Positions 1-36,606 of a stretch of 36,606 bases of DNA are shown piece after piece (the stretch's first letter is position 1; each line of letters begins with the position of its first letter). Made by a program: the position numbers and the translations under genes. The stretch covers positions 1 to 36,606 of the forward strand of contig JABSSW010000093.1 of assembly GCA_018902385.1 (NCBI GenBank). Reading direction: 5' to 3'. Below the pieces are notes generated by a model. It ran no database searches. It was not told where the DNA came from and saw only the letters and a list, made by a program, of their open reading frames with translations. This stretch comes from Physcia stellaris. Its lineage: Eukaryota; Ascomycota; Lecanoromycetes; Caliciales; Physciaceae.

Positions 1-3000
1 ATCGCGAATCGAACGTGTTTCGATTTTTTTGAGTTTCGTTTTGTTACGTCGATTGAAATCGATATTGTTAATTTTCGTATGAACGTTTTTGCATATTTTG
101 TGTCGATTGTTGTCGATTTGAATAATTTGATTGATACGAACGTTATTGAAAAATGTAAACGTTATTTTGTTTTTCAAATTGATACGATGTCGAATATTGA
201 ATTTGACGAAATTGCGAAAAAAATTCATTGAAATTTTCGTAATTTACACGTTCATTGATAACAAAAAAAATATTATACGAATCGAATGATGTTGACAACG
301 TTAATAATTGAAAACGATAAATGAATTGAAAACGACGTTCGTTTTCGTGTTGAAAATAAAAACGATATCGATTTTCGATGTTTTATTATATTTTTTTTAT
401 CATCAAATTGTTGAAAAAATTCATTCATTATAATTTTTTTTGTCGATTTAATTAAATTTCGTCGAAATTTTAATTTCAATTCATTGTAAATTAAATAAAA
501 TTGTGAATAAATTGACATCATAATCGATTTAACATTTTTGATTATTATTTCGACGAAATCGAATAATTTTTTATGTTTGCGAACATTTTTCATAATGTAT
601 TTTTTTTCGTGATTATCGTCAACGTCGTAAACGACGATTTTTTATAACGTTTTAACAACAAACGTTTTCATTTTTTTACATTTTTTTTTAATTTGATCAA
701 TTTTTTTTGATCGTCATTGACGATTTCAATATATTATCGTAATGCATGATCACGCATACAATTATAAAAATTTGTTCGAATCACATCAACATTTTTGAAC
801 AATGTCATATTTTTAATTTTTTCAATATAAAAATAAACATTTCGAAAATATGTATTTTTGTTCGAATGCTCGATCGAATTGTCGATAATAACGTTTTTTT
901 TTTCGTATCACGAATCGAAAAATTTTGTTTTTTGAATATTTCATTTGACGTCATCGTCATTGTCAAAAAATTCGATTGAATTTGATGATTCGACAAAATT
1001 TTGAAATTTTGTTTGAATATCGTTTCGAACATTTGTAATCAATGTTTGAAAAATTTGTCATTGTTGTTGCATGAATTTCGTGTTTTGTCAATTGTTATTT
1101 TCATTCGTCATGTTTGTATTAAATGTAAAAATAAATTCGATATTTTTTGTGTTTCGAAAAATAATATTCAACGAAATTATGATGTTGTTTCGTCGTTGAA
1201 AAAACGACGTCGACGAAATGATTTGAAATTTACGACGTAAATTTTTCGAAAAATAAACGTAAAAAATATCAAAAAAAATATTTGCAATCGTCAATTTTAA
1301 ATCAAAAATGAATGACGTAATTCGATCATTAATTCAATCGAAAATGATTGATTGTTTCGATACGTTTCGATAACGATCACGAAAATTTTAAAATTTTTGC
1401 GAAAACGAATTTTGTCGACGATTTATTCTGTTAAATAAACGATGTTTGTCGAAATTGAATAATTAATAATTGACAACGATGTTGATTTAAAGCAATTAAT
1501 TACAATATTGTTCATAGTAATTTTTGCAAATGTATTGACAGAATAAATTGAATCAATTGTATCGATGTAATCGAATAACTCAAACGCAATGCGAATAATT
1601 TGTGATATGAAAACAATCAAAATAACTTAAATGAAAATGATATGTCGTATTGAAATCTGAAATAAAATGATGATAAACAAAACAAAAAAAACCGAATTGA
1701 AATTTTCAAAATTTGTTGAACAAATTATTTGTTGATGAAAAAACAAATAAAATCGTTAAATTGAATTGTTCAAATCAAACAAAAATTCGATGATAAATTG
1801 ACATTCAAATGCGTCGTCATTGAGCGATAACAATGCGAATTCTCACGAAAAATCGAAATGTTTTGAATATTTGAATGAAAAATCAATCGTTTCTGCTGAA
1901 AATTGTAAAAAATTGAAAAAATTTGATTGAAATTTTTATTTTCAATTAAATGTTTGTTGTTAATAATTGATTTCGATCGACACGTCGAATCGAACGAACA
2001 ATAAAATTTTCGACAACGACAACGAAAAAAATATTGATGAACAAATGATTTGCGTACAGAATGCAAAACTGTTCGAAAACTGATACGTTAAAAAACAAAA
2101 AATGATGTCGTTTTGTTTACGTACAAATTATCGCTTGAATGATATTATCAATTGTTATGCGTAAAATGTGAATTCATTGATTTAAAAATTATGAACGACG
2201 AAATGTCAATTTATGTACAATAATTGCGAATTAATTGTTTGATCATCACTCATTTAATATGAAACGATGACAAAATTCTTGTCAAATGTTTTGCAAGAAT
2301 ATTCGATTTAATTTCAAATCATTCAATTTAATTTTGTGTTATAACAAAAACGCATTTCGTACAACAAAAACATGTCGATCAATTCGATATAATAAATTAA
2401 ATTTAACAAAATTGTAATTACATCGTCAAAATGAAAAATTCACATTTTCAATTATTTTCGAAACGTCGTTTTAATCGTCGTTCAAACGATGAACAAAATT
2501 TATCATTTTTTCGTATAATAAATTATTTTCACAAAATGAATATCAAAAATGTATGTATTAAATCAAATTAAAAAAATTTGAAATGTTCGTCAATTATGAA
2601 AATTGTTATAATCAAATTCGACAACGTTTATATCAACATCGAAAAACAAATCAAAAAAAAATTTCGTCGTACAAACACAATCGTCAATTAATCGATAATT
2701 TGTTCGAAAATTTCAACGATATTTTATCAAAAATTATAATTCGACATATTTTCGAATCATTTTAATTTGACAAACATATTAAGCAATTTTTATTACACAC
2801 GAACGTAAATGTGAATATGAAATTTTTATCGAACTTTTCGTCATTATTAAATCAATTTAATGAAATTATCAAATATCAATTACAAATCGTCGAATCAACG
2901 TTTCGAAAATTTGCGAATCAATCAATAATCAATAAAAAACGTATTTTGTTAATGACGAAATTATATCGAATAATATTCAATTTTTCATTCATGTTGAAAT

Positions 3001-3870
3001 TTTGAAACAATTCGATTAATATTCAATATCAAATAACATTTATCGACATAAAAAAATGAATCAAAAATGACAAAATGAATTCAAATTGTTCATTGAATTT
3101 TCGTTTTGAAATGTTTTTAATTATCAATTTTAAATCAAATTACATTAATCGCAATATGAATATTTGAAACGAAAAACAAAATAACAAAATATTAATATAA
3201 ATGACGTTTGTTATCGTTGCGCGTTTTGTCGCATTGATACGTTTATTGTTAATAACGAAATCAATTGTGTATATTATTAATATAATTATAATATATTAAT
3301 TGACATATCATTGAAAAAATCGTCGTATTTTTTCATTTTGAAATTTCAAACAAAAAACGAATCACGATTAAACGTGATTTTCAATGTTATGTAAATTCAT
3401 TCGATTTTACAAAATTGTTCAAATATTTTCAACACGATCACGATATTATTTCATCAATTTTTCGTTTTTTGAATATTGATATGACATTAACACAATTCGA
3501 CAAATGTATTTTCATAATGTCACAACATATGTCGTTTGCGAAAACGCAAAAAAAAATCGCGTATTGCGCGTGATACAATAACAATTTATTGAATTCGTCA
3601 AATTTGTTTGCAATTAATTAAAAATTGAAAACATTGTTATTGATACAAATAAACAATATTATTAATTTTTCATGACAATATTAAAAATAATGTTGAATAA
3701 AACGAAAAAAAAATACAAAAATGATATAATATAAAATGAATGTTTCGATAAATTCATATATATTCAATTCGTAATGTTTACAATACAATGATGCAAAAAT
3801 CAAATATCGTTTTTCGATAAAATATATCATTGCATCAATTTTATGCGTTCGAAATCGATTAAAATTTTTT
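1..3870. other. Gene-free, heavily CpY-mutated AT-rich DNA
   Basis: Almost no CpT, CpC, ApG or GpG remains here, while CpG (mostly inside TCGA, ACG and CGT) is frequent. Short open frames occur on both strands (for example 1-228 plus, open at the left edge; 746-979 and 1001-1240 plus; 1423-1620 and 1770-2066 minus; 2583-3005 plus). None shows a motif I recognise, and all are nearly free of Gly, Pro and Trp, as expected for frames left open by this mutation pattern. I read the stretch as eroded repeat DNA and support no gene in it. Confidence 0.6.
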
Positions 3871-3900
3871 CATAATATGTTTTGCAAACATAAAATCGAT

Positions 3901-3949
3901 TCGACTTCGAGTCGATAAACAATGAAACGTTTTCTCGACGTAAAGTCGA
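3901..3949. repeat. Two adjacent short hairpins
   Basis: TCGACT-TCG-AGTCGA at 3901-3915 is a perfect 6-bp stem with a 3-base loop. TCGAC at 3935-3939 pairs with GTCGA at 3945-3949. The sequence between them (GTCGATAAACAATGAAAC) recurs near 21674-21691 in the same orientation, so it belongs to a dispersed repeat. No function is visible. Confidence 0.5.
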
Positions 3950-3973
3950 TTTAAATATTGTTATTCATTGTTT

Positions 3974-4342
3974 TGTAACGATTCAAATCAAAATCGAATA
4001 AACGATTTGCAACAATTCAAATCAAAAACGAATAAAAAAATTTCAAATTTTGATTCAAATTTTAATGAACAGATTTCGATATATACGTCAAATAACGATG
4101 TAATCAAAAAAATTTTACAAATTTTAATTTCGAAAATTGTGAAAATCGCGAATAAATCAATTATTAGCGATATGCGATAATCGTTGAAAATTTCGATAAA
4201 AAATCGTCAAATACATAATGAATTACGAATTTTGCTTTTGATAAAACAGAAATTCGTTTGAATAACAAACACGTTAAATTGTAATTTTAATATTAATCAA
4301 TTGATGCATACAAATCAATTTTTCAAAAAAAAAATTTTACAT
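3974..4342 (+). repeat. Dispersed repeat R1, copy 1
   Basis: About 369 bp starting TGTAACGATTCAAATC and matching 21272-21607 in the same orientation. This copy carries an extra ~33 bp, which is a second version of the AATTCAAATCAAAAACGAATAAA-like block at its start. Differences from the other copy include ApG/ApA changes but also several CpG-to-CpA and TpG-to-TpA changes, so the pair looks older than the LTR pairs further right. The element type is unknown; the frame at 3968-4180 is not a credible gene. Confidence 0.75.
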
Positions 4343-4889
4343 TCGAATCGTTATTATAATCATCACGATTTGCATTTCTCGATTGAAATCGATATACAAT
4401 TTGTTTCGTACGAATTACAATCAAGAATTTCAAATTATATGAAGTTTGTAATCGTTTCGCAACAATTAATAGTCATTATATCAATTCGAAAATATCATCG
4501 AAAACATTATCGAAAATTCAATTTTATTCGTTTTACATTTAAGAATTTGCGAAATTTTTATCGTCAATTTTTTTTTCATTGCATGTCAATGCGTGAAACA
4601 ATAATACGATATTTTATTTAAAAAAATGTTTTTAACACGATTCAATTTTTCTATATTAATTCGAAATAAATTTCGTAAAACGCACGAAATGATCATTACG
4701 AAATTGGAAATCAATCAAATATCGCAACGAACGAAAAATTTCAATCGACATATTAAAATATTCAATTTCAACAATCATATTTTGCGAAAAAACGAAAATG
4801 TTTTTTAAGTTTTGAATCATCAAAAATTCATCGAATTTAATATCAATATTCAACAAAAAAACAACCATGTTTTTAATGAAATTTCATTA
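4343..4889. other. No recognisable feature
   Basis: Mutated AT-rich DNA with two overlapping open frames on the plus strand (4301-4621 and 4626-4808) and one on the minus strand (4656-4868). None has recognisable motifs or a credible start. Nothing else is seen. Confidence 0.4.
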
Positions 4890-7954: not shown

Positions 7955-9820
7955 AATACATTCAATCGATGTTAATAATTTGTCGAAAAAATTGTTCGAT
8001 TGATTTTGACGTTCGAAATCGATTTCGAATCGTTTAATCAAATAATCAAAATTATTGTTTTTCATTGTTTCAAATCAACACGAATTCGTCAAAAACAAAT
8101 TTCAAACGATTGAAATTTGCTTTAAATCGTTCATTGTCGATTCAAAATTTACATTTGAAACATTTAATTAATTTAACATGTTTCAAAAATCATCAAATAA
8201 TTTCAACATTTTTAACTCGTTAATTTATTGAATGTTTTTATGTTTTTTTCACGTTGTTTCGTGCGCGTTTTGTATCAATGTTCGTTTTCGTTTTTTTGAT
8301 GATTTTTTTATTCATGTCATTTTTTTCGTTTTGAATATTCATATGATTTTTTTTTATTTGAATATTCATATGATTTTTTTTTATTTAAATATTCATATCG
8401 TTTTTTTATTTGAATATTCATATCGTCATTTGAATTTCTGAATTATTGATCGTTTGTATTGTTTTTGTAATATTAAATTTGTTTTATTTTTTGTTATTTC
8501 GCGCACGTTTTGAATTTTTGTTGATATGTTTTTAACAATTTGTTTATAATTTGTTCGAATGTCAAAAGCACGAAATGTCGAACGACATGTTTTAATAACG
8601 ACGAACACGATATGTTCAAATTGACATGTTCAAAACGATATGTTTGTTGACATAATCATATATCAAAAACACGATATATGTTAAAAACAAAATCACGAAC
8701 ACGATATGTTCGTTCGTATATTTGATCAAATATATCGAAAATCGTGCAATTTGTAAACATTGCGATGTATCAAAACAAATTTTACGAAAATTTCATTTCG
8801 TTTTTTTGTATTGCAATATAATCAAATTAATTATACGATGATTGCAATAATATTGTCATTAAAATTTAAATCAATATAAAACATTTAAAATTCAAATTAA
8901 CAAAACATAACGATCGAAATTTTACAAGATTATATTAAGCAATTCGATCATCGAAATTCGATAAATTACGAAAACGATCAATTTGACTACGTCAACATTA
9001 AATTTTCGATTGAATTTAACAAATTTATATTTTCGAATAAATTTCAAAATGTGTGTACGATTGAACAATTTAATTGATTATATAAACAGAAATTTGAAAA
9101 GTAATTAATTTTACATTTATTAATTTAATGATAACGTTGTTTTTGTTATATATTTTCGCATATTTTTCGAATTTTATGATTAACATCATGATTTACATAT
9201 CGAACGAAATTCGATACATGTTTCAAAAACACGATATATTCAAATGACGATATCACGATATCAATTGACATGTTCGTTTGACAAAATCAAAATGTTTGTT
9301 GATACATTCGAACAAAAACGTCAAATGTTCGTTTACATGCTCGAAAATATAAACATTACATCAAAATTTATCGAAAACAAAAACAAAACTCGATACGAAA
9401 CAATTTCGTTTATTCAACAAAACTCGATGCATGTTTCAAAAAATGCAATTTTTGACGATTTCGCATCAAATCATGATGCGAACAAAATTTGATTCGATCA
9501 AAATTTATTTCGATAAAATTTTCGTTTTTCAAAATTGATTTCGATTTTGCAAAAAATAAACAACAATATTAATTCAAAATGAATGCGTTTCAATCGATGT
9601 TTTTCGTTTAAAAACAATCGTGTCGAAAAACGTTCGTCGTTTTTCAAAAATCATATTGCAATGAACAAAATATGTCAAAATCGATATAATTTTATCGATG
9701 CAAAATTTCACATGCATCGTGAATTAAAATTTCGTCGAATAATTTGTTGTCATTTAATCGTTATTACAAAATCGTTATTTGCGAAACATGAATGAATTGA
9801 ATATAATTTTTAATTGTATT
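7955..9820. other. AT-rich DNA with simple repeats, no gene
   Basis: Apart from the minisatellite at 8331-8425, this stretch shows only loosely repeated words (ACACGATATGTTC and ATATGTTCGTTCG variants near 8620-8760 and 9210-9290). Open frames at 9244-9492 and 9583-9795 have no recognisable motif. Confidence 0.4.
8331..8425. repeat. 27-bp minisatellite
   Basis: Four copies of a unit containing GAATATTCATAT (itself a near-palindrome, at about 8333, 8360, 8387 and 8412) separated by T-rich runs. Period is 27, 27 and 25 bp. The overlapping frame 8232-8441 translates it as a repeating hydrophobic peptide, which is an artefact. Confidence 0.85.
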
Positions 9821-9821
9821 A

Positions 9822-11069: not shown

Positions 11070-13269
11070 CGAATTTTTGAATGCGAATTGAATGCAATAA
11101 ATAAATTTTATATATTAAATAAATTAAAATTAATGAAATGTTCGCAAAAAAACAATACAATTTGAATGCAAAATCATGTATTTTTTCGATGTTTTTATTG
11201 TCGCATTACATTTTTTAATTTCAAATCGAAAATCACGAATTCGAAATTTTTGAATCAAAATACGTTTTCGATTTTCGATTTTATCTGTATGAAAACGTAA
11301 AGAATTCAAATCAATTTTGATGTAAAACAACGTTTGTTTTTTTTTATTTTTTGTTCGCAATTAGTTTATTTATTTATTTTTTTATTTCAAATCGAAAAAC
11401 ACGAATTCGAAATTTTTGAATCGATATATGTTTCGATTTTTCGTAAATTCGATCAAATATCGTGTTTCAAAAGTTTTGCGATCAAAAACAATACATTGAA
11501 AAAAAAAAATCATTTTGTTTTTTTATCGCATGCTTTTTGTTTTTGATGTTGTTGTATTCGTTTAAAAAAAAATTTAATTTTTTTTGTAAACGTGTTTCAA
11601 AATTTTTGAATATATTCAAATCGTTTCAATCGTTTTTGATAAATTTTCGTATTTGTTTCAAAAAATAAAATTTATCGTTCAATAATTCATTTGCGTTTTA
11701 AAATACGTTTTGATTTTCGAAATTGCGTTTTATTTGTCACACGATATAATTTTTCAAAAATAATGTTTTCGTTTTGTTTTTCGAAAATTGAATCGAATTG
11801 ATTTGAAAAATTAACGACGAAAATTTTTCGATCACGTTTGATGTATTTTTGATCGTAACGAAACGAAATTCGAAAATATTCGAAAACGTGTCAAAATGAA
11901 AAAACGACGAAAAAGTTGAAAAAACAAAATTATGCGATTTCGAATGATAAATTGAAACAAAATTGAAATGAAATTGTGATAAATATTGAAATTCGAATTA
12001 AAAATCGAATTGAGAAAAATAATACAATTGTTGATCGTAAAAAAAAACATTTTTTGAAAACGACATAACGTACGAATGTTGATTTGTTTGTTGATACGAT
12101 GAAAACGAAATTTAAAAAAATTGATAAAAATAATACGAATTTATTGACGTTTCAAAAATCGATGATTGTGACGTTAATATCGTCGAAAATAATAAAATAA
12201 ATGCAAATTTCTCGTTGAACGTTTTTACAATATTTTTTTTTTCGATCGTTGTTTGTTTTCAAAAAAAAATTTCATATCGTATAATTTGAATTGCAATTTG
12301 TTTGAAAATTTATCGATAATCGTTTTTTTCGCAACGATAATATCGTTTCATTCGTCGAATCATTCGTGATACAAAACATGATATTTATTATTTTCGTCAC
12401 GAAATTGTCAACAATATGATGTATCATTTCGACATGTTTGCAAATTGCATTTTTATATAAAAAACATTTTATGATTTTCAAATTTTAATTGTTTTTTTGT
12501 TTTTTTACGAAATTTCGTTGTTTTTTTTGTTTGACGATGATCGAATTCGATTTTTTTTTCCGTTTTGAATTTTTTTAATACGTAATTTGTTAACATTTTC
12601 ATTCGTATCGTTGTTTAATTACTCGTCATCGATATCGAAAAAAACGAAAAAAAAAACAAATCAATTTCAACAATATGACATCGTTTTTTGTTAAAAAATT
12701 TTGAAAAAAAAATGATTTCATTTTTCAATTTATTATTGTATCGAAACACGATATTAACAATAATATTTTTTTTGTCATGAAATCATTGCATAACAAATTC
12801 ATGACAAACATTTCAATCGTTATTATTGTTGAATTTTTGTTTTGCAATGTTTTTGAACGAAACACATTACAAATTCGTCGTACGTTCATGTTTGATCACA
12901 TTTCGATTTCGACGATTTTATTAAATCGAAATATCGAATTTTCATTGAAATTCGAATAATTGAATGTTTTGAAAATCGTTATTTTGTTCATAATTTTGTT
13001 GTCGTTGTACGAAATTAAAATGTTTATCGTGTAAAACAACGAAAACATCGACGATCGTTTTTCGATAACAACGAATTCAAAAAAACGAACATCGTTAATG
13101 AAAATCGTGTTATTCGTAATCGATTCGTTGAATATGTTGAATATTTTTTTTTGACGAAATTGATATTCGTATTTTCATTTTTATTGCGTTTTTTTTTTCG
13201 ACGATTTGTATTTTTTGATCGCGTTTATAACGATCGTTGCGATTCAATCGTCAAATATGCGATCGTAAT
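11070..13269. other. Gene-free DNA with a 55-bp direct repeat
   Basis: A ~55-bp block (AATCGAAAATCACGAATTCG onwards) at 11222-11276 recurs at 11390-11444, a period of 168 bp, and a shorter related word lies near 11062. Open frames on both strands (11130-11360, 11334-11668, 11832-12050, 12272-12481, 12777-12959) show no motifs. The stretch lies inside the putative Tc1-like element and could be an eroded insertion. Confidence 0.45.
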
Positions 13270-13441
13270 TGTTACGATAAATCGTGATGTGAATGAATAA
13301 TATGTTTGATTGTTTTATTTAGAAAACTGTCGAACACATATGAAAATTCTGAAACGAACGTTAATTTCATTTGATCAAATTATTTACAAAATTCAGTTTT
13401 GATTTTACGTTTTGCGTGCGTAACATGCAGAATTCATAACA
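13270..13441 (-). repeat. Family 1 LTR (3' LTR)
   Basis: 172 bp, TG...CA ends, TGTTA/TAACA terminal inversion. It differs from 19526-19697 at 13 positions: nine are CpC/CpT transitions (either strand), one CpG, two CpA, and one transversion. No indels. Confidence 0.9.
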
Positions 13442-13670
13442 AATGTTCACGAAAAAAGAAAAAAAATTGCGTTTTCGCAATCATTTCATTTGTCGAAAAA
13501 AAAATGTGAATTCATCGTTGAAAAATCTATTAATAATACACGTAAAGAAAAAAGAAATTCATCGAATTTTTCGTTCATTAATTCAAATGTCTTTGTGAAT
13601 TGCGCTCGAAATCAGAAATAATGCACATTTTGTATAACAAATGATTCGATATTTTTGATCAGAACTTTTT

Positions 13671-14771
13671 TCAAAATTGATTCAAACGTCGATTCGATCG
13701 AACAGAAAAAATTCGTTCGACGAAACGACGATGACGATGTTTCAAATGAATGCAACGAAAATGTTCATACAATTCGTTATTGAAACGAAAAATTCGAAAA
13801 CAACGACGACATGTATGAGAAATGAAAATTTTGTCGAAAATCATTGCGAAAATTTTCGAAATTTGACGATCAACGTATTGTTCGACAAATGCGAATTTTG
13901 TTTTCGAATCATACATTGATTCAAATTTTTCGAATTCGTGCTTTTCGCATCTTTTGTAATGTTCGATTTCTGATTGATCAATTCGTTGAACTTTTTCAAT
14001 GTCTTGATGATCGTGATTTCGAAAAACTTGATTCGAAACAAAATCATTTTGTATGATGTTTTGTTCAATATTTTCAATCACGACATGATTCACTATTATT
14101 TCTTCTACTCGATCATACGTCATTGAAATCTCACTGTTTTCTATACAGATTCGATTTTTGAAAATGAGAATATCAACGTTGTAATTCTTGATGATATTTA
14201 TGTTTAATAACACGTTTGCGAAAAGTTTTTTCATCACGTATGATTGAACGACTAGCTTCTCGTTGTCAATGATGATGTCGTAATTGACGTATTTCGAAAT
14301 CAACTGATTTTTCACTTCTCGCAAATTGACAGACTTGATATTCTTGATTTCGAGACTCAGTTTATTGACGATGCGATCGTCGATCAAAATCATCATGCTT
14401 TCAGTATCGAGACAGATTTCTCGCTTGACATCGTCAGGAAATTGCGCTTGTATTATGATGTAATCACGTGCAATAAACGAATAAACGACGACGTGATGCA
14501 TTTGATTGCTATATGAAAAAAAGTCAAAATCAATATCATGTTGTTGAATCATGTGCTTTCACAAATCATCGTAAATATTTCATTTTTTAGCACATTTCAT
14601 GCAAGAAAACGATGATTGAATTTCGCGTTGAAACGTAAAATCGTTAAAAAACATTTCAACAAAATTCGTCTTCTCGTCAACGAAGTAGAAATTGATTTCA
14701 TTGATTTCGTTCTCGTTGATTTCGACAATTTCGACGATATTTGTCAAAAATTTCTGATCATTGACGAACAT
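13671..14771 (-). pseudogene. Retroviral-type aspartic protease with two C2H2 zinc fingers
   Basis: In retroelements this protease cleaves the gag-pol polyprotein. One frame runs from 14771 to 13671. First comes a C2H2 finger, C-x2-C-x12-H-x4-H, at about 14600-14538. It is broken by two in-frame TGA codons (14582-14580 and 14561-14559) at positions that would suit Trp. The uninterrupted 293-codon part follows (14552-13671). In it the active-site triad reads Asp49-Thr50-Glu51; Glu (14402-14400) replaces the Gly of DTG, as GGA-to-GAA would give. The flap/C-terminal part has the usual NVLLNINIIKNYNVDILIF pattern. A second finger has Cys248, Cys251, His264 and His269, a layout common in fungal gypsy elements. 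The next module, the polymerase, is absent. Inactive by the triad alone. Confidence 0.75.
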
Positions 14772-15914
14772 TTAGATAGAAAATGTGACATATTCACGAA
14801 CGAAATCGAAAGTTGATGTTGCATTCGCTGAAATATTGTATTGTTGCGAAAAAAAAGCAATTTGATTACGTTTTGATCGAGAAAATCGTTGATATTGCTG
14901 ACGATTTTGATTTTCTTGCTGTTGATATTTTTGTTGTTGATATTCAATCGACGATTGTTGTTGATATTCTTGTTGTTGATATTCAATTAATTGTTGTTGT
15001 TGACGAACATTGATTTTCAAATTTCGTTGATATATCGCTTTTTCACGTTTTGCAGCGAATTGACGACTTTTATTGATTCAAAATTCGCAAATCTGTTTCA
15101 GACGTTTCGTGAAATCGTTTTGATCGTCATTTGATTCGAAAACACGAACGTTTCGTTGAAATTCGAAATCGAAATTTTTTCAAACAATTGTAAAAATCGC
15201 AAATTCAAATAATTCGATCGCTCGCGAATAACGCAAAATGATTTAAATATACTCGTTCACGAAACGTAATTTTTGCGCATTTGACATCGAATAATGTTTC
15301 GCGATCAACTTATCGAATGTCTGTGACGTAAACATTTTGTATTTTTGTTTCAAACGAATGCAAAAAATTTTCATCGTGCGACAAATGCGATTTTGCAATT
15401 TCATCATCAAGTTCGAAAATCATTGCATTGCAAAATCTCGAAAACATTCGTGAAATCGCGAAACAATGTTCTCAAAATTAATACGAGCGATACGTTTAAT
15501 TTGTTGCACGAAAAAAATCACGTCACGATATACGATGTATTTGTTGACATTAATAACATCGTTTGCAGAATATTCAGACGTAATGATCAGATTCGAAACA
15601 AAAAAATCGATATTCGATGTTTTGAAATTTATTGTCATTTGCAAATACTTTTTATGATCACTCGAAAACGTAATATGATTTCGATTGTATTTTGAATGTG
15701 TTGCATTGTACTCGAATAAAATAAATGAATTAATTTGATTCTGTATAAAACGTTCGATAAATTTCTGTTGAAAAAAATCATTCAAATTTCGATAAAACGA
15801 TCGCATTTCGATTTTCATGAAATCAATCGAAACGATTAATGAATTCATATTTTTTTTCAATTTCGCTACGCGTTGTTTCACGATAATTTGTTTCGCGTTT
15901 TGTTGTTGAATCAT
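14772..15914 (-). pseudogene. Family 1 gag-like relic with Gln-rich tail
   Basis: A single frame of 381 codons ends in TAA at 14774-14772, directly against the ATG of the protease frame. Several stops interrupt it (TGA at 15422-15420 and others between 15250 and 15065). It begins MIQQQNAKQIIVKQRVAKLK, a helical charged segment. The middle is a helix-rich region typical in composition of gag, though I cannot match a domain. The end (about 15020-14900) is Gln-rich from TTG repeats on the plus strand. It is identified mainly by its place upstream of the protease. A further short minus frame at 16279-16013 may be the original N-terminus in another frame. Confidence 0.6.
14900..15003. repeat. TTG-rich degenerate repeat (poly-Gln)
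   Basis: Repeated TTGTTGATATT and TTGTTGTTG units, read as Gln-Gln-(Tyr/Leu)-Gln on the minus strand at the end of the gag relic. Confidence 0.7.
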
Positions 15915-16302
15915 TGAATTTTTTTGTTTTTGTTGTTGTTGAACTCATAAATTCGAATGTGAATTCAATGAAATTGATTGATCGAATACGTTTTTAGCAA
16001 ATTGAGAAAAAGTCACATCGACGATCGAACGAAATCGTTGTTGAACATTAAACACGACGTATTGAAAAACAAAAAAATTAAAAATTTCGACAAAAAACGA
16101 CGAAAATGATGCGATGATTTCGAATTTTCGTTTACGTACTCGACGTGTGAATTACGTGCGATTTGATCACGATCAAAAATGACATTATCGAGATTTGAAT
16201 GATTTTTTTGATTTGAACGATTTTTTGAATTTGAACGATTTTTTGAATAATTTTCAATAAAATGCGAAGAACGATTCATGACGTAATACTATTTTGTATG
16301 AG

Positions 16303-16307: not shown

Positions 16308-16491
16308 TGTGACGAGCGTATTATGTGTTAGAATCCTGATAGATGTTTGAATTTTTATTTTATCACAGCGAGATTTGCGATTCGAATTTCGTTATGATCA
16401 AATCATCTACATATGTTTTGTCAGATTTTCATAGTTAATTTTGCAGTCTAGAATTCTGTTGTTTACTCATATCATTGCATGACATTTTACA
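16308..16491 (+). repeat. Family 2 LTR, copy 1 (outer left)
   Basis: 184 bp, TG...CA. Among the three copies, 15 positions vary, all explained by C-to-T before C or T on one strand. Followed by TTAA and then directly by the next LTR. Confidence 0.95.
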
Positions 16492-16495
16492 TTAA
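16492..16495. other. TTAA junction between tandem LTRs
   Basis: The junction reads ACA-TT-AA-TGTG. The base pairs TT also follow the inner LTR (16680-16681) and AA also precede the right LTR (19167-19168). The four bases are thus the two extra bases of each end of an unprocessed linear cDNA, joined end to end. Confidence 0.75.
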
Positions 16496-16679
16496 TGTGA
16501 CGAACGTACTATGTGTTAGAATTCTGATAAATGTTTGAATTTTTATTTTATCACAGCGAAATTTGCGACTCGAATTTCGTTATGATCAAATCATCTACAT
16601 ATGTTCTGTCAGATTCTCATAGTTAGTTTTGCAATTTAGAATTCTGTTGTTTATTCATATCATTGCATGACATTTTACA
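16496..16679 (+). repeat. Family 2 LTR, copy 2 (inner left)
   Basis: 184 bp, same ends as copy 1, no indels relative to copies 1 and 3. Confidence 0.95.
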
Positions 16680-17250
16680 TTATTCTAAACTCTATCAAAT
16701 TCATTCGGAGTATGTTTTCGTACATGTCTCAATCATAGTCTGTAGCAGACAGTTGAATCGAGCATTGCATTTCGCAGCAGAATTTCGTCGATCAGATTCT
16801 AATTTCTAAATCATTAATCAACGAATTTCGATTTCTTTTTTTTACACGTTTATTCAGATCATTACATCTATTTATCGCTCGTTTGTGATACGCGAGATTA
16901 AATAAGCATTCACACTCTCTTCATTTTCAAAAATTCGATTTCGAAATCTCATATCAGATTTCAAAATCGTCACGATAATTCAGCACTCGAATCATCTATT
17001 TGTTTCGAGAACTTTTCACAATCATATTTATTTATTTAGCAAATCGGCATTTGTTTTCTGTCTCGATGATAACTTCAATAACATTTCGAGTCACAATCTT
17101 ACGAGTCGAAACATTCAATCGAGATATTCAATATTTACATCATCATTTCTATTGAAGAATCTTTCGATATTTTATCTATTTATTTAGCAAATCGATCGTC
17201 ATTTTTTGTTTTCGCAATGAACAAGTACGATACTTTTGCAAAGCGATTGC
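16680..17250 (+). other. Family 2 leader, weakly mutated
   Basis: Untranslated leader after the LTR. It retains many CT, AG, CC and GG dinucleotides. The segment GATACGCGAG near 16890 and its surroundings recur near 29840 after the LTR at 29587-29802, which ties the two elements together. Short TTTA-type tracts occur at 17025-17040 and 17175-17190. No primer-binding site could be assigned with confidence. Confidence 0.6.
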
Positions 17251-17992: not shown

Positions 17993-19109
17993 ATGACTCG
18001 ATTTCTAGAACATACGAAACAAATCAATTGTTCGAAAATGATTTGGAAGCATTGCGATGCAGATTTCAATTTCAAGAACAAGTTTCACGAGCACATTCGC
18101 GAACAACATACTCAGAAATCGAATATCAATTCGAATTTCCGATTCATTACATCAGAATTCACGTACAAAATCAAGAAGAAATCAGCAATCATTTGCTCGT
18201 TTGTTTCGTTTGTTTCGTCGACTTTCTTTGCAACATTTGCATCGATATCATCAAAATGTTCACATTTTTCTATTGCGACATTCGATATTACATCAAAGCA
18301 AACGAAGATCGCAACAATGTTAATTACACGAGATTTTACATCAAAACGCGTCGAAATTGCAACGTTCAATTGTTCGTTTGCTTTTTCGTTTACTCTCTTC
18401 GCAACATCACGAAATCAAATATTTTCAACGAAAATTGCTTCACGATTTGTTTCATCAAATGATTCAGATTTTTCGATTGCGACACATAAAATCACATCGA
18501 AATCGATGAAGAAACTATCAGTCAATTCATTTACATTTTCGATTTCATCTTTTTCAACATTTTCTCGAACATCTGTATCAGAACATCAGAAATCTTATTT
18601 CATTATCGATGATTTGATTCGCATGTTTCGTGAAAAATCTAAATCATTTGATTTACGTCAACATCAAAAGCGTCGTTTTTTTTCGCAAAGCATCGACGCT
18701 CGATCATTTGTTACATATTAATTTCGCATTATCGTCTATTTTTTGTTTGCAATCAATCAGAAAACATCGATTGATCAAAATTTGAAAAGTTCGAATTCGA
18801 AACGTTTTCAACAGTTTACGTCTGCGAAAACGATTCGTTTTGTTTTGTCAAAAAAATCGATCATTTCATCATACAAAAAAACAGACATCTTTTACATCTC
18901 ATTGCAATCAAGATTTTCATCAAAATTTTCATTCGCATGATTTCGATTTACGTTTTCGTTTGCGTTTTCGTTTACATTTTCGTCATTTTTTCGATTTCGA
19001 ATTTCAGATCACGTTTGTTACATTTGCTTCGATCATTTCAGTTTTTGCAATGACTCGTTCAATTATCGACATTTTAGTCAATCATATTTTTCGAATCGTC
19101 GATCGATGA
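17993..19109 (+). pseudogene. C2H2 finger, Ser/Thr linker and DDLxRMF segment of a gypsy polyprotein
   Basis: The 242-codon frame 17993-18721 has a finger-like segment at residues ~13-40 (Cys13 or Cys21, ending NKFHEHIREQH). A long Ser/Thr/Phe-rich linker with repeated TSK.., IAT.. units follows (residues ~50-195). Then comes IIDDLIRMFREKSK and a basic QHQKRR tail (~200-242). In fungal gypsy elements this order (finger, low-complexity linker, acidic-start DDLxRMF block) lies between protease and reverse transcriptase. The text continues in other frames to about 19109 with Arg/Phe-rich repeats, then the purine tract and LTR. Overlapping frames (17971-18462, 18057-18323) are shadows. Which role the segment has in the protein is not known. 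Confidence 0.55.
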
Positions 19110-19141
19110 GAAAAATGAGAGAAATGATTAGTCGTTTCGAA

Positions 19142-19168
19142 ACGAAATTGAAAAAGAACGAAAAATAA
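19142..19168 (+). other. Purine-rich tract before right LTR
   Basis: AACGAAATTGAAAAAGAACG followed by AAAAATAA, almost pure purine, directly adjoining the LTR start TGTGACG. Position and composition fit the plus-strand priming tract of an LTR element. Confidence 0.5.
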
Positions 19169-19352
19169 TGTGACGAGCGTACTATGTGTTAAAATTCTGA
19201 TAAATGTTTGAATTTTTATTTTATCACAGCGAAATTTGCGATTCGGATTTCGTTATGATCAAATCATCTACATATGTTCTGTCAGATTTTCATAGTTAGT
19301 TTTGCAATTTAGAATTCTGTTGTTTACTCATATCATTGCATGACATCTTACA
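19169..19352 (+). repeat. Family 2 LTR, copy 3 (right)
   Basis: 184 bp, followed by target duplication ATTTT at 19353-19357. Confidence 0.95.
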
Positions 19353-19492
19353 ATTTTGATGTAAATTCGATGAAATCGCGAAATCGTTTTTCAGCGAAAT
19401 TGATGTTATTTTTCGATATTGACGATATTCAACGATTCTGATACGATTCAGCGACGTTGATCGTTGCTAAAAGAATTTTAAACAGTTTGAAA

Positions 19493-21715: not shown

Positions 21716-24438
21716 AATATTTTCGAATTAATCGATTGATTAATTGATTTATCAAACATTCGAAATCGATTTTAAAAATTCGTTATACGATTAAAAACAA
21801 TCGAATCAAACATTTTTCAAAAAATTCTTGATTTTATACAAATTAATTTATTTTTAAAATTTTGATTTTCGATTCGAACAAATTATTTGAATGATATTTT
21901 TTTCATGTTTTTTTATTATTTATCGTTGTATTAAAATTTTCAATATAATATGTTTTTTTGTTATGTTTGAAATGTGTAATTGAATTAATTAAAAATTATG
22001 AAATGTAAAACGCATGTTTAATTAACAAATAACATAACGAAAATATTTGATTTAAAAAACAAATATCGTCGAAAAAATATTTCATTGTTTATCGATTTAA
22101 AATCGAATCGATTTTGATTAAAACGTTTAAAACGTTTAAAATCAATTTTTAACGTTTTTAATCGTTTTACATAATATTCGAATCAATTTCGAATTCATAA
22201 AACATTATATCAAAAAATTATATTCGATTTCAAATATTTGATGTTAAATTATCGTTTTGATTTTTTTAAAAACATTCGTTGTTGTGACGTTTAAATTTTA
22301 TATTACAACGCATGCAATCATGATTTGTTTATGTTTGTTTTTTGAATTGACAATACATTTTGATTATTGTTGTTTAAAAACAATATTTGTTCGTTGCATC
22401 ATTGTATTGCAAATTTAAATTAATTAATGATATTTCAATTAAAACAATTTCAAACATTTATCGATTTATCGATTTTCGTTTATGTTTGTTCGTTATTATG
22501 TTGTTTTTAAAAAATACGTTTAATTTAATTGATGCCGATGATTAATTCTAATTTTAATCGTAATAAAAAAATTAAAAAAATTTAATATTTGATTATGCAA
22601 ACAAATTTTTGAATGTCAAATAATTCATGTTAAATAAATATTGTTACGAATAAAAATAAACAAACAACGCGCAAAAAATATTCGAAAAATATTAAACAAA
22701 TTTTTATTTTTTCGTTTTTTGTCAAATTTGTAATAAATAATTAATAAATATTTAAATATATTATATGTCAAATTCGTTGTGATTTAAATTTTTACAAAAT
22801 TTCAAAAATAATTTAATTTTAATTTTGTTTTTGTTTTTGTCATCAATAAAAAAAAATTGATTCATTTTTTCAAATATTTGTTTTTTGTAATTTTTGTTTT
22901 CATGATAACGAACACGATTAAAAATCAAATAAACATAATAAATTGCAAAATTTATGTACGTTAATAAAATCATTTTTATATATTTTGAAAAATTTACGAA
23001 ATGATATCGATGTAATCGCACGCATATATTGATAAACGTGTTCGTAAATTATTGTTTGAAATACATTCGATTTTATATTTATTTTGTTTTTATTTGAATT
23101 TGAATTTATTTCAATACGATTTTTTTTGAACATTTTCATTTCGACGAATTTGATATATTTATAACAATGTTTCATTCGAATCAAAATTAAAAAATTTCAA
23201 ATTTAAATATATTGTTCAAAAAAACGTATTTTTATTGAACAACGTTCGTAATTCAAATATCGTTTTCGTATTGTTTTAATTTATGCGTTTGAACAAAATT
23301 TGTTTAATAACGATATTATCGTTTAACGATATTGCAACAAAAAAAATTTCGTGAATTGATAAATACATTTTGCGCATATTTGCAAAAAAATTAATTAATT
23401 TTTTTAACGATATGTAACAATCAACGACTTTTATAACATTATTATATTTCGAAATTTTTAATTCGTTTTTGTCGTTTACGATTATTAACATAAAATATAT
23501 TGTTATCAATTTTGTGTTCGTTAAATTTTTTAATTCATATGAAATTTCGAAAAAAAAAATCGAATAAATTCAATTTTTGCACGACAAAAAATTTCACGTT
23601 GTTTCGAAATTTTTCGTATTTTCGTCAATAAAATTTTTGCGATTATAAAAATTAATACGATTTTTTTTAACAATTTTCGATTTTTCAATCGAACGCATCA
23701 TTTTTCAAAATAATTTTAAATTTTTGTTAACAAAAAAAATTATTATTATCGTTTTTCATTAATGAATGTTATTGATATCGAATAACAATATCGAATTTTT
23801 GTATCGAATAACAATTGCGCATTTCGATTTAAATTTCGAAATTCAATTGTATTATTGAACAACGCGAAACGCATATTTATTGAATACGATATTAAACGAT
23901 AATTACAATTCAATCGTAAACATATTATTTTTTTGTACAACAAAGAATTTGTGCGTATAATTTGTTGTAATATCGAATATATAAAATTTTCAAATCATTC
24001 GCGTTCGAATTTAATTTTGATAATAAATATATAATATCGATATATTTTTAATTTATTTAAAAACATGTTTTAAACGTCAAAAATGTTCATAAATCAATTG
24101 TATGCGTTATTTATGTTCATATATTTTTTTTTCATGTTTTTTATTCGATTCGATTTCGCGTAAATTTTAATAATTTCGAAATTTTTTTCAAATTTCATTG
24201 AAATTATAATTAAAAATTTGAAATATAACGACGAATTCGTAATTGAATTTTCGATATTACAATCGATTTGAACGATATGAAAAAATTTGATAATTAATTT
24301 GATTTTTTTATGTTAATTTTGTTAAATTTGTGAAACGTTTTATACGTGAAATTTCGTTTAAATTTTTTAAATTTCGATTGAAATTTTTTTTTCGATATTC
24401 ATTAAATTTTTCGTTGTTAATATTTGTGCGAAAACATT
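21716..24438. other. Heavily eroded DNA without genes
   Basis: Very AT-rich, with CpG the main remaining G+C context. Minus-strand frames at 22761-23184, 23276-23509 and 23746-23943 have no recognisable motif. Nothing else is seen. Confidence 0.4.
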
Positions 24439-24624
24439 AAAAATCGCGAAAAACACAAAAACACGAAAAATCGCAAAAAACACAAAAACACGAAAATTCG
24501 CGAAAAACACAAAAACACGAAAAATCGCAAAAAATACAAAAACACGAAAAATCGCGAAAAACACAAAAACACGAAAAATCGCGAAAAACACGAAAACACG
24601 AAAAGTCGTAAAAAACACGAAAAT
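24439..24624. repeat. 30-bp minisatellite, about six units
   Basis: Unit AAAAATCGCGAAAAACACAA followed by AAACACGAAA, repeated with small changes (CGCG/CGCA, ACACA/ACACG). Because 30 is a multiple of three, it stays open in several frames and gives a 10-residue basic repeat on plus and a Phe/Val-rich one on minus. Neither is a credible protein. Confidence 0.9.
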
Positions 24625-24638
24625 TAAAAAAATGAAAT

Positions 24639-26479: not shown

Positions 26480-26665
26480 ATCATTATTTATTTGCGATAT
26501 TTCGACAAAATGATTGTATTGAACGATCAAAATTCGCGATATTTATTCGTCGATTTTTGAATAAAACGATTGTATTAAACAATCAAATTTCGCGATATTT
26601 ATTCGTCGATTGTTAAATAAAACGATTGAATTGAACGATCAAAATTATCAATATTTATTTTAAAT
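26480..26665. repeat. 56-bp tandem repeat, about three units
   Basis: CGCGATATTTATTCGTCGAT at about 26535 and again at 26591, with flanking ATAAAACGATTGTATT and AACGATCAAA blocks; partial units on both sides. Confidence 0.8.
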
Positions 26666-31656: not shown

Positions 31657-32233
31657 TGAAAAAAATCATTGATGAAAAAAATGCATTTTTGATAAATCAT
31701 TTGATAATTGAATCGACAATTTAATCAAACAAAAAATGTTTAATTTGCAAATCATTTTTTTGATTAACGATAATTTTTCAAATATCGACGACGATAATAT
31801 AAATTTCGATATTTCAATCACATTCGACGTTAAATCGAAAAATTAACAATTTTTTTCGAAAACGCGAAAAAAATTATCAAAATTTGTTCACGAAATTTTC
31901 AGCATAACATTTTTAACGAATTTCATTGTAAATTTTTAATTAAAAAGATAAATTTGTTTTCAAATGATAAAAAAATCATGATTTCATGATTTAATTGATA
32001 TCGATGTTTTTGAATACGTTTTCATTAATGAAAAAATTGCGCAAAAATATGTCATAAATTAAAATTAATTTCAGTTTTTATCGCGATTTAAAAGAATTTT
32101 TAATTTCGAAAAAACGAAAATCAAATTTATTATTTATCAGATATTGTTCAAAATGACGATACAAAATTATTCAAAATTTTTCGTTTCATTGTTCATCAAA
32201 ATAAAACAACATTCGCTGATTTTAAAAAAATTT
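31657..32233 (+). other. Expected protease position, unreadable
   Basis: By order this segment should hold the element's protease, but I find no DTG/DSG-like motif in any frame. Frame breaks are dense. Its end joins the next segment through a TGA at 32234-32236. Confidence 0.35.
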
Positions 32234-32905: not shown

Positions 32906-32972
32906 CAACGTCAAAAAAACTGATCAAAATAAAAGTTGATTTTGATTTGAATTTCAAAAAAATTTTAAAATC

Positions 32973-33962
32973 ATGAAAACAATCGTCGAGAAATTGAAAC
33001 GTAAAATTTTTGAATTTTTTAAACGTTTCGAAAATGTATTCAATTCGAAAAAAACAAACAAATTATTTTTTCATAAATTTTACGATCACAAAATCGAATT
33101 GATCGAAAATTCGAATCAATTGTTTCGAAATCGAGTTTATTTTTATCGTTCAAAAAATTCGAAATTTTTCAAAAATATTTACACGATAATTTTCAAAAAA
33201 AATTTATCAATTCAAACAAGACGTTTTATGTTTCGTTTATTTTATTCGTTGTCAAATCGAATGAACAATTTCGTTTGTGCGTGAATTATCGAAAATTGAA
33301 CGTCATAATCAAACGTAATAGTTATTTTATTTCGTTGATCGAAAAAATGTTCGTTAAAATTATCGATTGTAAATTTTTGTTCAAATTGAATATTATATCG
33401 ATTTTCAATAAATTTCGAATGAATTCACAAAACGAAAATTTTATTATTTTCATATGTTCGCTAAACATTTACAAATATCATGTATTGTTTTTCGATTTTA
33501 TCAATGATTCGATCAATTGACAACATTACATGAACGATTTGTTGTTTGAATATATTAATCATTTTTGTCAAATGTATTTGAATGATATTTTCATTTACAA
33601 CAAAATTCGAAAACAGCATAACGACATTTCATTCAAATATTTCAAAAATTGAAAAAATTAATTTTCAAATCGATATCAAAAAATGCGAATTTTTTCAAAC
33701 AAAAATTTCATTTTTAAAAATCATATTATCGACAAAAATTTACGCATGAATTTCAAAAAATGCAAAACATCGTCAATTGAATTCGTTCAACATGCATCAA
33801 AAAAATGCAAACGTTTGTGAATTTTGCAATTTTTATCGACGTTTCATTAAAACGTTTTCGAAATTCGTCAAGTTTTTAATTCGAATGATAAAAAAAAAAA
33901 AAAAAAAAAAAAAATTGATTTCGAATGAATTGATTTCGTTAACGAAATATTCGAAATTTTAA
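32973..33962 (+). pseudogene. Reverse transcriptase relic
   Basis: Would copy element RNA into DNA. Seen in order: YDHKIELIE (frame 3, about 33081); CVNYRKLN (frame 2, 33278); the first catalytic block FKLNIISIFNKFRM, with Asn at 33389-33391 for the catalytic Asp; ICSLNIYKYHVLFFDFINDS, with Gly replaced by Asp and Pro by Ser; TGA at 33518-33520; HYMNDLLFEYI; and the catalytic box YLNDIF, with Asn at 33581-33583 in place of the first Asp of YLDD. The connection block CNFYRRFIKTFSKF follows in frame 3 (about 33818). Each substitution is what GpG-to-GpA or CpY-to-TpY produces. Catalytically dead. Confidence 0.85.
33890..33914 (+). repeat. 25-base A run
   Basis: It lies inside the reverse transcriptase relic after RMI and codes for a Lys run. 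The likely source is a run of Lys and Arg codons (AAG, AGA, AGG) whose ApG and GpG were changed to ApA and GpA. It is not a retroposon tail. Confidence 0.6.
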
Positions 33963-34199
33963 AAAAACAAATAATCGAACGAAATTTCGATTTTTGACAT
34001 TACGATCGCAATCGTAAAATTATTTTGAAAATCGATTTTTCAAATTGATGTTTAAATGAAATTTTATTTCAATACGACGACGACGAAATTTTTCATTCGA
34101 TGAATTTTTTTCAACAAAAAAATAATTTTTGTCGAATGTAATTATGAAATATATGACAAAAAATTTTTGATCATTATCAAATGTTTGAAACATTGAAAA

Positions 34200-34480
34200 T
34201 TCGAATTCGAAAATATCGACGAATCAATTGAAATTTATATCGATCACAAAAATTTGAAAATTTTTATGACAAACAAAAAATTCATTTTTTGTCAAATACG
34301 TTGAGTCGAAATTTTGACGAATTACAACATCAAAATTCAATATCAATTCGAAATCAAAAACGTCAAATCAAATGTTTTGATTAAAATGTTTGAATTTCGT
34401 TTCGTCGAAAACGACGAACGTGAATTTTATAAAAAACAAATTTTGTTGTCATTTTTTCGATTGCAATTATGTTCGATTGA
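34200..34480 (+). pseudogene. RNase H relic
   Basis: Would remove the RNA strand of the hybrid. Frame 3 has IDHKNLKIFMTNKK at 34239-34280, the TDHKNL block of gypsy RNase H with its Asp at 34242-34244. Then follow QIR-TGA-VEIL (TGA 34302-34304 at the invariant Trp of the R-W-x-E pattern), NYNIKIQY, and an N-V-x-x-N-V-L region for the usual 'N-x-x-A-D-A-L'. The N-terminal half (33963-34199) cannot be read. Confidence 0.75.
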
Positions 34481-34734
34481 CGTTTAAAACGATTTGTACG
34501 AACGCGTCATGCAAATCAATCGAAAAAACGAAAACTGTACAAATCATCGTCAAATTTTGATCGATGAACAAATCATTAACGAAAAAATAAATTTGCAAAA
34601 TTGTTTCGATCGAGACGAAATTTTCTTTAAAAACGAAAATTTATGAATATCAAATCAATTAAATTTTATGATGAAAATAATTCGTGACGTTCACGATCAA
34701 TTTTTTTGTGTGCACATTCGAACATGAATCGTAT

Positions 34735-35400
34735 TGAAAAATTCATTAAACGTTATTATTATTGATTTAGTATGAAATTATTCATCAAACGTTATATTCG
34801 TAATTGTCACAAATGTCAACGATCGAAATTTTTTCACGATAATCGTCACGAATTGTTAATTTCATTGTCGATTTTTAATCAACGATGAATTGATATATCG
34901 ATAAATTTCATAATTGAATTATTTGATTTCAAAAGCAACAATGTCATTTGTACAATTATCGATCGTTTGATCAAAAAACGTCATTACGTTTTTTTTGTGA
35001 TTGATGACGATAATTTAACAATTCAAATTTGTGTCAAAATATTGTTCATTACGTATTTCGTATTCATGAATTATTTTTTTCATCATTTCAAATCGAAATG
35101 ATCAATTTGTAAATCGCGTTTGAAAAATTTTTTGTAAACGATTAAAAATCAAATGTAAATTGTTCATTGTTTTTCAATTTGAAATCGATGATCAAATCGA
35201 ACGAACGAATCAAAATATCGAAATTCGATTGCGTTTGTATTGCAATTATCGTCAAAACGATCAATTGATTGAATAAATATCATGAAATTCGTCGACAACA
35301 ACGATGTTTCAACAATCATCGAATTCATTTCATTTTTATTAATAAAAATTATCATTTTCGAATGATTTTGAATCAAATTTAAATGATTATGAAATCATTA
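34735..35400 (+). pseudogene. Integrase relic (zinc-binding and catalytic core)
   Basis: Would insert element cDNA into the chromosome. Frame 2 from 34772: KLFIKRYIRNCHKCQRSKFF, with the C-x2-C of the HHCC zinc domain (Cys codons 34805 and 34814). Then TGA at 34886-34888 for Trp, then IDISINFIIELF, with Asn at 34904-34906 for the first Asp of the DDE triad, then CTIIDRLIKKRHYV. In frame 3 the block DDQIERTNQNIEIRLRLYCN keeps the catalytic Glu (35199-35201); its Gly is now Asp. Further TGA and frame changes lie between. Confidence 0.85.
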
Positions 35401-35529
35401 AAAAACGTTTGTTGATCAAACAAAACGAATTCATTGTCGAAAAATGAATCGTATTATCGAATACGTCAAAATCAATGTTGTCGACGCTGAAACAAAAATG
35501 ATTATTCGAATCAACAAATTTCGTTTGTT

Positions 35530-35990
35530 TATAAATTTTGAAATAAAAAATTATTTTTGATTAAATCGTCGTTACATAAAAACAATTCGTTCATCAAACA
35601 AATTGAATGACAAAAATGAATTCATACAAAATAATTCAAAAAAAAAATTTTGTTTATGAATTGAAATTGTTCGACGACATGCACATTTATTCAATTTTTC
35701 ATTTTTGATTATTAAAAAAAATTTAGAAATTCGTTGAAAAAACAACATAACGATTTTTCAAAATCAATTATTGCAAACGAAATGTTTGAATGAAAATTCG
35801 ACGATATATTACAATTTCGATATCATTATTATCGTTTTCAATATCGTTGCAAATGATCGAATGAAATTTCACGATCGAACATTTGATATTACGTCGACGA
35901 CGACAAATTTCAAAATATTCAAAACATCGTGAATGTTTTTCACGATGTTAATTCAAAAACAACAAAATTTGTTTTGCGAAATGATTAAAT
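35530..35990 (+). pseudogene. Integrase C-terminal module with chromodomain
   Basis: Chromodomains in these integrases bind histone marks and steer insertion. A segment near 35570 reads LNRRYIKTIRSSNKL, the 'L-x-x-x-x-I-x-T-x-R-x-x-x-K-L' part after the core. The chromodomain follows in frame 1 from 35770: IANEMFE-TGA-KFDDIL, RYHYYRFQYRCK-TGA, and TGA-YYVDDDKFQN..IVNVFHD. The TGA codons at 35791-35793, 35854-35856 and 35884-35886 fall at the aromatic-cage or core Trp positions of the family. Three Trp losses within 32 codons; no other stop in this stretch. Confidence 0.75.
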
Positions 35991-36606
35991 TGTAACTTTA
36001 TTGTTTATGATCGATCAGAAAATTGTTATCGAATTCGTTACAATTCATTTTCAAATTGATTCAATAATTTTTTTTTTGTCATTCGTTTCGTTGTCATTTC
36101 GCGTTATTTACAGTCAGAATTTACGTCGCATGAAAAGTGAATCGTGTCAAAAACATTTTCAAAAATTGTCGTCAAATTTTACTGAACAATAAATAATAAT
36201 GTAAAATGTACGCAATGATTGAATAAACAACAAATTGTCAAAAATTCGAACATTTACAAATTCGTCAACAAGATTTTCAATTGTTTACTAATGACACGCG
36301 AAATTATTTGTAAAATTCGTTCAAAATATTTGTTTTTTCAAAAATTTAATACATGCGTATTTCGTTGAATGCAATGTACGAATCAAACGTCGTATATGCG
36401 ATAACATCAACGCGTTAATCGTGATGATAAAAATTTTATCGATTTGTTCAAATTGTTCGTTTCGTGATATCAATTTGATGATTCAAAAATTCTCAAAATC
36501 GTTGACGCGCTCAATTGTTTGCTTACTAATGTTCGTCGAAATTATTCTTGACGAATTGTATGAATTCGATTATTTTTCACGACATTCATTACATTCACGT
36601 TTTGTC
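35991..36606 (+). other. Right end, unassigned
   Basis: Follows the chromodomain. A plus frame at 36001-36192 and one open from about 36366 to the edge (with ICSNCSFRDINLM) have no recognisable match. ATTGTTTACTAATG near 36280 and TTGTTTGCTTACTAATG near 36515 are similar words. No LTR start TGTGACGA is seen. Confidence 0.35.

Follow-up and report, generated by a model that had tools for sequence, protein, structure and literature searches.

In Neurospora crassa, repeat-induced point mutation (RIP) attacks cytosines in the order CpA>CpT>CpG>CpC, and in Trichoderma reesei CpA and CpG are hit about equally, both above CpT, which in turn exceeds CpC (PMC5496416). CpA accounts for 240 of 242 RIP changes in Zymoseptoria, the other two being CpT (PMC10294615), RIP in A. 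anomala uses CpA and CpT (PMC10998396), and a survey of 1,239 genomes concludes that a CpA preference is shared (PMC12543289). CpT is the main context and CpA the second in Magnaporthe oryzae and Botrytis cinerea T4, for which no CpC signature is listed (PMC4352252). Alignment-based work finds Tad1 of N. crassa strongly changed at CpT (PMC2621366) and, in a set of control fungi, a predominance of CpT to TpT (PMC7882544). RIP-like mutation in basidiomycetes targets CpG or TpCpG (PMC4014442, PMC4352252). Among lichen fungi, RIP has been called by CpA-type indices in Endocarpon pusillum, Cladonia metacorallifera and Gyalolechia flavorubescens (PMC3897900, PMC7882544), and by GC content, with no context given in the text available, in Cladonia rangiformis (PMC12542154). 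Here we describe contig C93 of the lichen fungus Physcia stellaris (36,606 bases, all of which we call the window), in which cytosines that precede a pyrimidine have largely been converted to thymine on both strands and those in CpA and CpG mostly persist.

The P. stellaris genome comes from an ascospore-derived axenic culture sequenced with Nanopore and Illumina, with a published assembly of 46.57 Mb in 184 scaffolds at 43.32% GC; no RIP analysis was found in the available text of the genome paper (PMC7513301). The copy analysed here is somewhat smaller (43,974,083 bases in 147 contigs). We counted dinucleotides over the entire window, which has a GC content of 25.0%, and expressed them as ratios to the mononucleotide expectation. 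CC and GG occurred 17 and 15 times (0.03 of expectation each), CT and AG 366 and 380 times (0.21 and 0.23); CA (2254; 1.30), TG (2043; 1.21) and especially CG (2034; 3.56) were kept, as a first-pass annotation of the sequence had claimed. Its split of the cytosines in bases 1-180 was reproduced exactly (CG 16, CA 2, CT 0, CC 0), and its description of CT, AG, CC and GG as nearly absent held for CC and GG (maxima of 0.15 and 0.20 in 1.5-kb blocks) and for CT and AG in most blocks but not in some (ranges of 0.02-0.61 and 0.02-0.92, peaking in the 16.5-18 kb block). Fewer than 30% of the C's, counted on both strands, preceded a pyrimidine in each of the 73 consecutive 500-bp segments, and the depletion is confirmed as real. 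Base composition alone is insufficient to account for it, because the ratios are corrected for mononucleotide content and because four methyltransferase-gene loci of the same genome (two of them overlapping; GC 0.504-0.519) gave CT, AG, CC and GG ratios of 0.89-1.09.

The direction of change was read from alignments in which real repeat copies served as references and C-to-T changes were counted by 3' base. In the cleanest pair, from locus L082 (contig C11, GC 0.54) to L079 (contig C43, GC 0.33; 2,000 columns at 77% identity), C had become T at 263/282 CC, 153/252 CT, 7/278 CA and 2/264 CG sites, with five transversions at C. This pair shows 241 C>T and 185 G>A substitutions and 14 of other kinds, confirming that both strands were hit; C:G to T:A transitions make up 426 of the 440, as expected of RIP in the broad sense, and CpA is not the main mutated context, as it would be in canonical RIP. 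With L056 and L058 as references (aligned parts at GC 0.46-0.50), the totals over 22 alignments, in which several copies appear against both, were CC 2442/2982, CT 2345/3576, CA 360/3821 and CG 384/3356. This set omits alignments shorter than 600 bp and same-place repeats (L030, L034, L046); the L056 to L058 comparison stands outside the total and supplies the divergence background (CC 20/146, CT 17/184, CA 12/183 and CG 20/173, or 14%, 9%, 7% and 12%). A third set, in which L034 (GC 0.40, itself partly mutated) was compared with 15 copies, two unmutated ones being kept in the total, gave CC 769/983, CT 1942/3168, CA 305/3850 and CG 329/3370, and two of the pairs in an earlier set of 13 yielded no alignment. 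The window itself contains a piece that aligns with the unmutated L014 and L016 (positions in Table 1), for which we counted CC 42/50 and 50/52, CT 21/30 and 24/33, CA 4/41 and 4/40, and CG 3/42 and 5/44, respectively, these two references being 93% alike and hence not independent. The copy alignments thus put the mutations at CpC and CpT; CpA as the main context, an outcome that the first-pass annotation had said would refute it, is not what they show.

The rate of mutation at CpC is some 2-3 times that at CpT, and CpA and CpG are barely touched. The per-site rate ratios in three pairs were 2.9, 2.2 and 2.5 for CC/CT, 106, 28 and 42 for CC/CA, and 355, 13 and 29 for CC/CG, the lower values of the second and third pairs (the first being the clean L082/L079) probably reflecting background divergence. 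Lightly mutated copies had lost CC ahead of CT (44/84 vs 73/258 in L049; 60/84 vs 101/259 in L048), and between 500-bp windows with GC of 0.45-0.50 and those with 0.35-0.40 the probability that a C is followed by C, P(C|C), dropped from 0.219 to 0.055 and P(T|C) from 0.283 to 0.256. The bases at positions -3 to -1, +2 and +3 had small effects on C-to-T change; the one plain exception was CCC, whose first C was less often mutated (33/47), presumably because the middle C often mutates first and leaves CpT. A forward model applied to stretches of three unmutated copies with chosen rates (CpC 6, CpT 2.4, CpA 0.05, CpG 0.02) gave P(A,C,G,T|C) of 0.515/0.000/0.426/0.058 at a final GC of 0.263, to be compared with 0.470/0.003/0.445/0.082 at 0.250 in the window; a CpA-led model failed (0.071/0.172/0.285/0.472, with TA/AT of 1.32). 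As a separate observation, L017 (contig C2) falls to a GC of 0.11-0.17 at about 1650-2850 with no CpC or CpT in 300-bp windows, which is below what the rule alone reaches from normal DNA, and this stretch is possibly centromere-like or satellite DNA.

The non-repeat controls are sampled stretches, as distinct from BUSCO-wide or whole-genome counts. Besides the methyltransferase loci, they comprise 28 stretches taken at round-number coordinates on large contigs, which are not random draws. Twenty-four were normal (GC 0.446-0.547, with a pyrimidine following 0.47-0.57 of the C's), four carried the signature (L041, L072, L078 and L079; GC 0.227-0.330), and CpA depletion was seen in none of the 28. 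Among the low-GC 500-bp windows of all loci examined, overlaps included, 288/292 had fewer than 30% of their C's before a pyrimidine and 0/292 had under a quarter of them before A, and CpA-type RIP was rejected as the main explanation on this count. The link to repeats was tested on two of the four mutated stretches, L079 and L072, which are both repetitive (42 matches for L079 and at least 40 for L072, from 40 scored of 239 candidates), and on one of the 24 normal stretches, L076, whose matches are itself and a single piece covering 99 bases of the query and which is otherwise single-copy. On this limited sample, repeated DNA is the target. Bases 13400-16000 of the window have 47 matches in the genome and the L034 family has 127. 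When scanned at 300-bp resolution, mutated DNA gives way to normal DNA within a few hundred bases. The same depletion in single-copy genes, which the first-pass annotation had set against its own claim, is absent from the non-repeat DNA of the methyltransferase loci and the 24 normal stretches, copy number itself having been checked for one stretch. Plain AT bias is rejected as the main reading, since the effect is context-specific and, in the stretches tested, confined to repeats.

Like canonical RIP of Neurospora and other Pezizomycotina, the P. stellaris pattern consists of C:G to T:A changes on both strands of repeats with single-copy DNA spared, a strong fall in GC, and a RID-class gene in the genome; it differs in that CpC is mutated ahead of CpT, CpA is spared, and the usual index ratios are unremarkable. 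TA/AT and (CA+TG)/(AC+GT) were 0.48 and 1.37 in the window, compared with 0.62-0.71 and 1.19-1.37 in ten control loci, and 0/72 sub-windows showed TA/AT raised and (CA+TG)/(AC+GT) lowered past the thresholds of either of two sets (one from PMC3897900, the other RIPper-style), so that standard indices are blind to the pattern, as had been foreseen. CpT is a mutated context here as in M. oryzae and B. cinerea T4, where it predominates and where RID-class genes are also present, but in P. stellaris CpC leads and CpA is near background. T. reesei, in which CpC comes last, shows that the dinucleotide order varies by species and lies at the opposite end of the scale. The basidiomycete process likewise is C-to-T hypermutation with one preferred 3' base, but in the P. 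stellaris window CG is kept, and CpG-type mutation is rejected as the main reading on this excess together with the 2/264 CG changes from L082 to L079. P. stellaris joins the other lichen-forming ascomycetes in having AT-rich mutated repeats. The earlier claim that RIP specific for a 3' pyrimidine is undescribed stands in part: CpT-leaning RIP is in print (PMC4352252, PMC2621366, PMC7882544), but no CpC-first, CpA-sparing case was found in the open-access literature, most subscription papers lying outside the search; CpC is mentioned in PMC7493409 and PMC8959702.

We conclude, with a probability of roughly three in four, that the window is transposon-derived repeat DNA inactivated by RIP that targets C before a pyrimidine, most likely through a RID-class enzyme with a changed 3' preference. 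Dependence on the 3' base, with the 5' bases contributing little, is what a C5-methyltransferase that reads CpN should show, and not an AID/APOBEC-type deaminase. Such a methyltransferase would follow Neurospora RID in acting before meiosis and on paired repeats, and its target cytosines would end as thymines; the sequenced culture was raised from ascospores, and therefore the species passes through meiosis (PMC7513301). The interpretation offered by the first-pass annotation is supported. Several observations nevertheless weigh against our conclusion. Where low-GC references were aligned to the most heavily mutated parts of the window, four short alignments (L010 and L011 at 8926-9156; L014 and L016 at about 21731-21968) gave CA 41/134 and CG 13/92; CpA may mutate slowly and so be incompletely spared in the oldest pieces, or these losses may reflect divergence. 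The forward model gave a TA/AT of 0.33, a poorer fit to the 0.48 of the window, and strand clustering was mixed over 10 copy pairs (p<0.05 for same-strand in 3 and for opposite-strand in 4). L014 (contig C95) and L016 (contig C60) share a duplication, 93% identical over 3.3 kb (about 300-3300), that is mutated at about 300-1200 and normal beyond, leaving about two thirds unmutated in both; either the duplicated DNA escaped or it was duplicated after the mutation had taken place. Families whose other copies are heavily mutated also include unmutated members with a GC of about 0.5 (L056, L058 and L082), which are either recent insertions or escapees.

The search for RID and DIM-2 homologues that had been proposed with the claim was productive: a PF00145 profile search of the genome gave four matches, which fall in three genes: a DIM-2-like one and a pair of the RID class. 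L035 has a 1118-aa frame whose best solved chain is 9bap (E 4.6e-188, titled just 'DNA (cytosine-5-)-methyltransferase') and a BAH match below cut-off; it appears to be DIM-2-like, the name DIM-2 being our reading of these matches. L036 and L037 have a C5-methylase core with the PPC, E-Q/E-T and GNAVPP motifs, the final conserved block of L037 lying in its third exon, and by these motifs both are predicted RID/Masc1-class methyltransferases. In a quick tree of 82 rows, with long branches and N. crassa RID not among the rows, the L036 protein was nearest to P0001, P0011, P0003 and P0009 (Heterodermia), and L037 fell with 35 rows in a separate set (SH-aLRT 100); those 35 are the top matches of L037 itself, including one under an organism name, P0128 (Heterodermia aff. 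obscurata). We tentatively raise the possibility, which we hold to be less likely than not, that L037, which belongs to a different clade from this genome's RID, is a CpC/CpT-specific RIP enzyme and that its gain or retention switched the lineage to a pyrimidine-only target. The target-recognition part of RID-class proteins varies between groups with no difference tied to a context, and 12/30 RID-class proteins have no recognisable motif VIII or end early. Having two RID-class genes is not new in number, because other fungi have two as well (PMC4352252). The new-context methyltransferase or deaminase that the first-pass annotation suggested is a matter of inference; the genome has the expected RIP-type enzymes and a second RID-class gene.

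It is unlikely that the DIM-2-like enzyme, in place of a RID-class one, sets the context by way of heterochromatin-linked, CpT-preferring methylation that guides the mutations. The gene is present, and according to a review Neurospora DIM-2 prefers CpT and older heterochromatin repeats need DIM-2 for RIP (PMC13297926); the preferred context here, however, is CpC with CpT second, and fungi whose RIP is of the CpA type commonly have a DIM-2 gene (PMC4352252, PMC7882544), so that the presence of one does not by itself explain the switch.

Slow decay, in which CpC and CpT methylated in repeats would lose 5-methylcytosine to spontaneous deamination over long times with no burst in the sexual phase, would yield the same context and the same limitation to repeats, and the copies do show all degrees of mutation. 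We consider it quite unlikely, given that the 426 C>T or G>A changes from L082 to L079 stand against 14 other substitutions in about 2,000 columns and the mutations were therefore fast relative to ordinary divergence, although a very high deamination rate could still fit. An AID/APOBEC-type DNA cytosine deaminase that mutates repeats directly would produce C to T only, on both strands, and the genome has eight matches to PF00383 (the cytidine/deoxycytidylate deaminase family), a number ordinary for a eukaryote. AID/APOBEC enzymes read mainly 5' bases, however, and here the 3' base decides and the 5' bases matter little; a SNAD4 search of the genome gave no match, and we regard this alternative as highly improbable. 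A search with APOBEC_N also gave no match in the genome but is uninformative, since its controls were silent too. Modified bases can be miscalled in sequencing. That such miscalls in the repeats of a Nanopore and Illumina assembly (PMC7513301) produced the pattern can be practically dismissed, given that unmutated copies of the same families are present in the same assembly and that the signature recurs in proteins from other contigs, as described below.

RIP directed at cytosines before pyrimidines also leaves a distinct mark on coding sequence. The window retains a 293-aa open frame with 14 protein relatives, all from source contigs in ENA; what is known of the spread of the context comes from them. 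One relative, P0240, is less mutated, carries retropepsin families, and contains Pro 4.5%, Gly 8.2%, His 4.8% and Gln 7.2%. The other 13 contain Pro 0-0.5%, Gly 0-0.3%, His 1.5-5.1% and Gln 4.3-6.4%, and several of these are shorter pieces, which may explain the lower His. Loss of Pro and Gly with His and Gln kept is as expected of a rule that removes CCN and GGN codons and keeps CAN, and since these relatives carry the signature it is not an artefact of this assembly. Pfam gave weak matches in two of seven open frames of the window, both below cut-off, and, in a set of 38 frames, two families that each hit a single frame (E 0.00045 and 0.0082) and have no apparent bearing. Under a pyrimidine-only rule, TGG is the only one of CAA, CAG, CGA and TGG that can turn into a stop. 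In the four longest frames of the less mutated copies (L056, L058, L016 and L022, from six copies counted) there were 31, 28, 28 and 16 CAA/CAG codons, which a CpA rule could make into stops and the pyrimidine rule cannot, and 3, 2, 7 and 5 TGG codons, which the pyrimidine rule can. Few stops under this rule fit the survival of the 293-aa frame in a mutated window.

The features of the window are collected in Table 1. Tandem arrays are also present, at 24431-24623 (7.1 copies of a 27-base unit), 16308-16682 (two copies of a 188-base unit) and 26485-26659 (3.1 copies of a 56-base unit). Outside the window, a long frame of L056, from a repeat family related to the window, carries C2H2-type zinc fingers close to its start (2891-4597, minus strand; E 6e-07), and a frame of L022 in a repeated unmutated region carries a BIR (inhibitor of apoptosis) domain (1612-3096, minus strand; E 1.9e-11).

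Table 1. Features of the 36,606-base window of P. stellaris, with positions counted from its first base
Positions	Strand	Feature	Evidence or relation
1..36606		repeat-derived DNA, both strands mutated C-to-T at CpC and CpT	dinucleotide counts; 73/73 500-bp segments
13269..16189		mutated repeat piece	another mutated copy lies on contig C29 (86% over 2,947 columns); many shorter matches
13510..13817		piece aligning with unmutated L014 and L016	C to T counts from alignment
13671..14552	-	retropepsin-like frame of 293 aa, still open	Ty3-type peptidase match below cut-off
18449..19375		piece related to L034 family	alignment; more mutated in window than in L046, L048, L049
33303..34623		mutated repeat piece	90% identical to L015 stretch on contig C55
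35734..36604		mutated repeat piece	87% identical to L026 stretch on contig C6

These observations make the P. stellaris genome a clean exception in the target context of RIP. Indices built on TpA/ApT and CpA+TpG rate such DNA as RIP-free, and since none of the 72 sub-windows was flagged, other genomes may have been wrongly scored as free of RIP. The pyrimidine rule implies a way of killing genes different from that of the CpA rule: RIP with a pyrimidine target would silence transposons almost without stop codons, through the loss of Pro and Gly and perhaps also of AG splice acceptors. With two RID-class genes and a switched context in one genome, the determinant of the target base of RIP becomes testable by expression in a laboratory strain.

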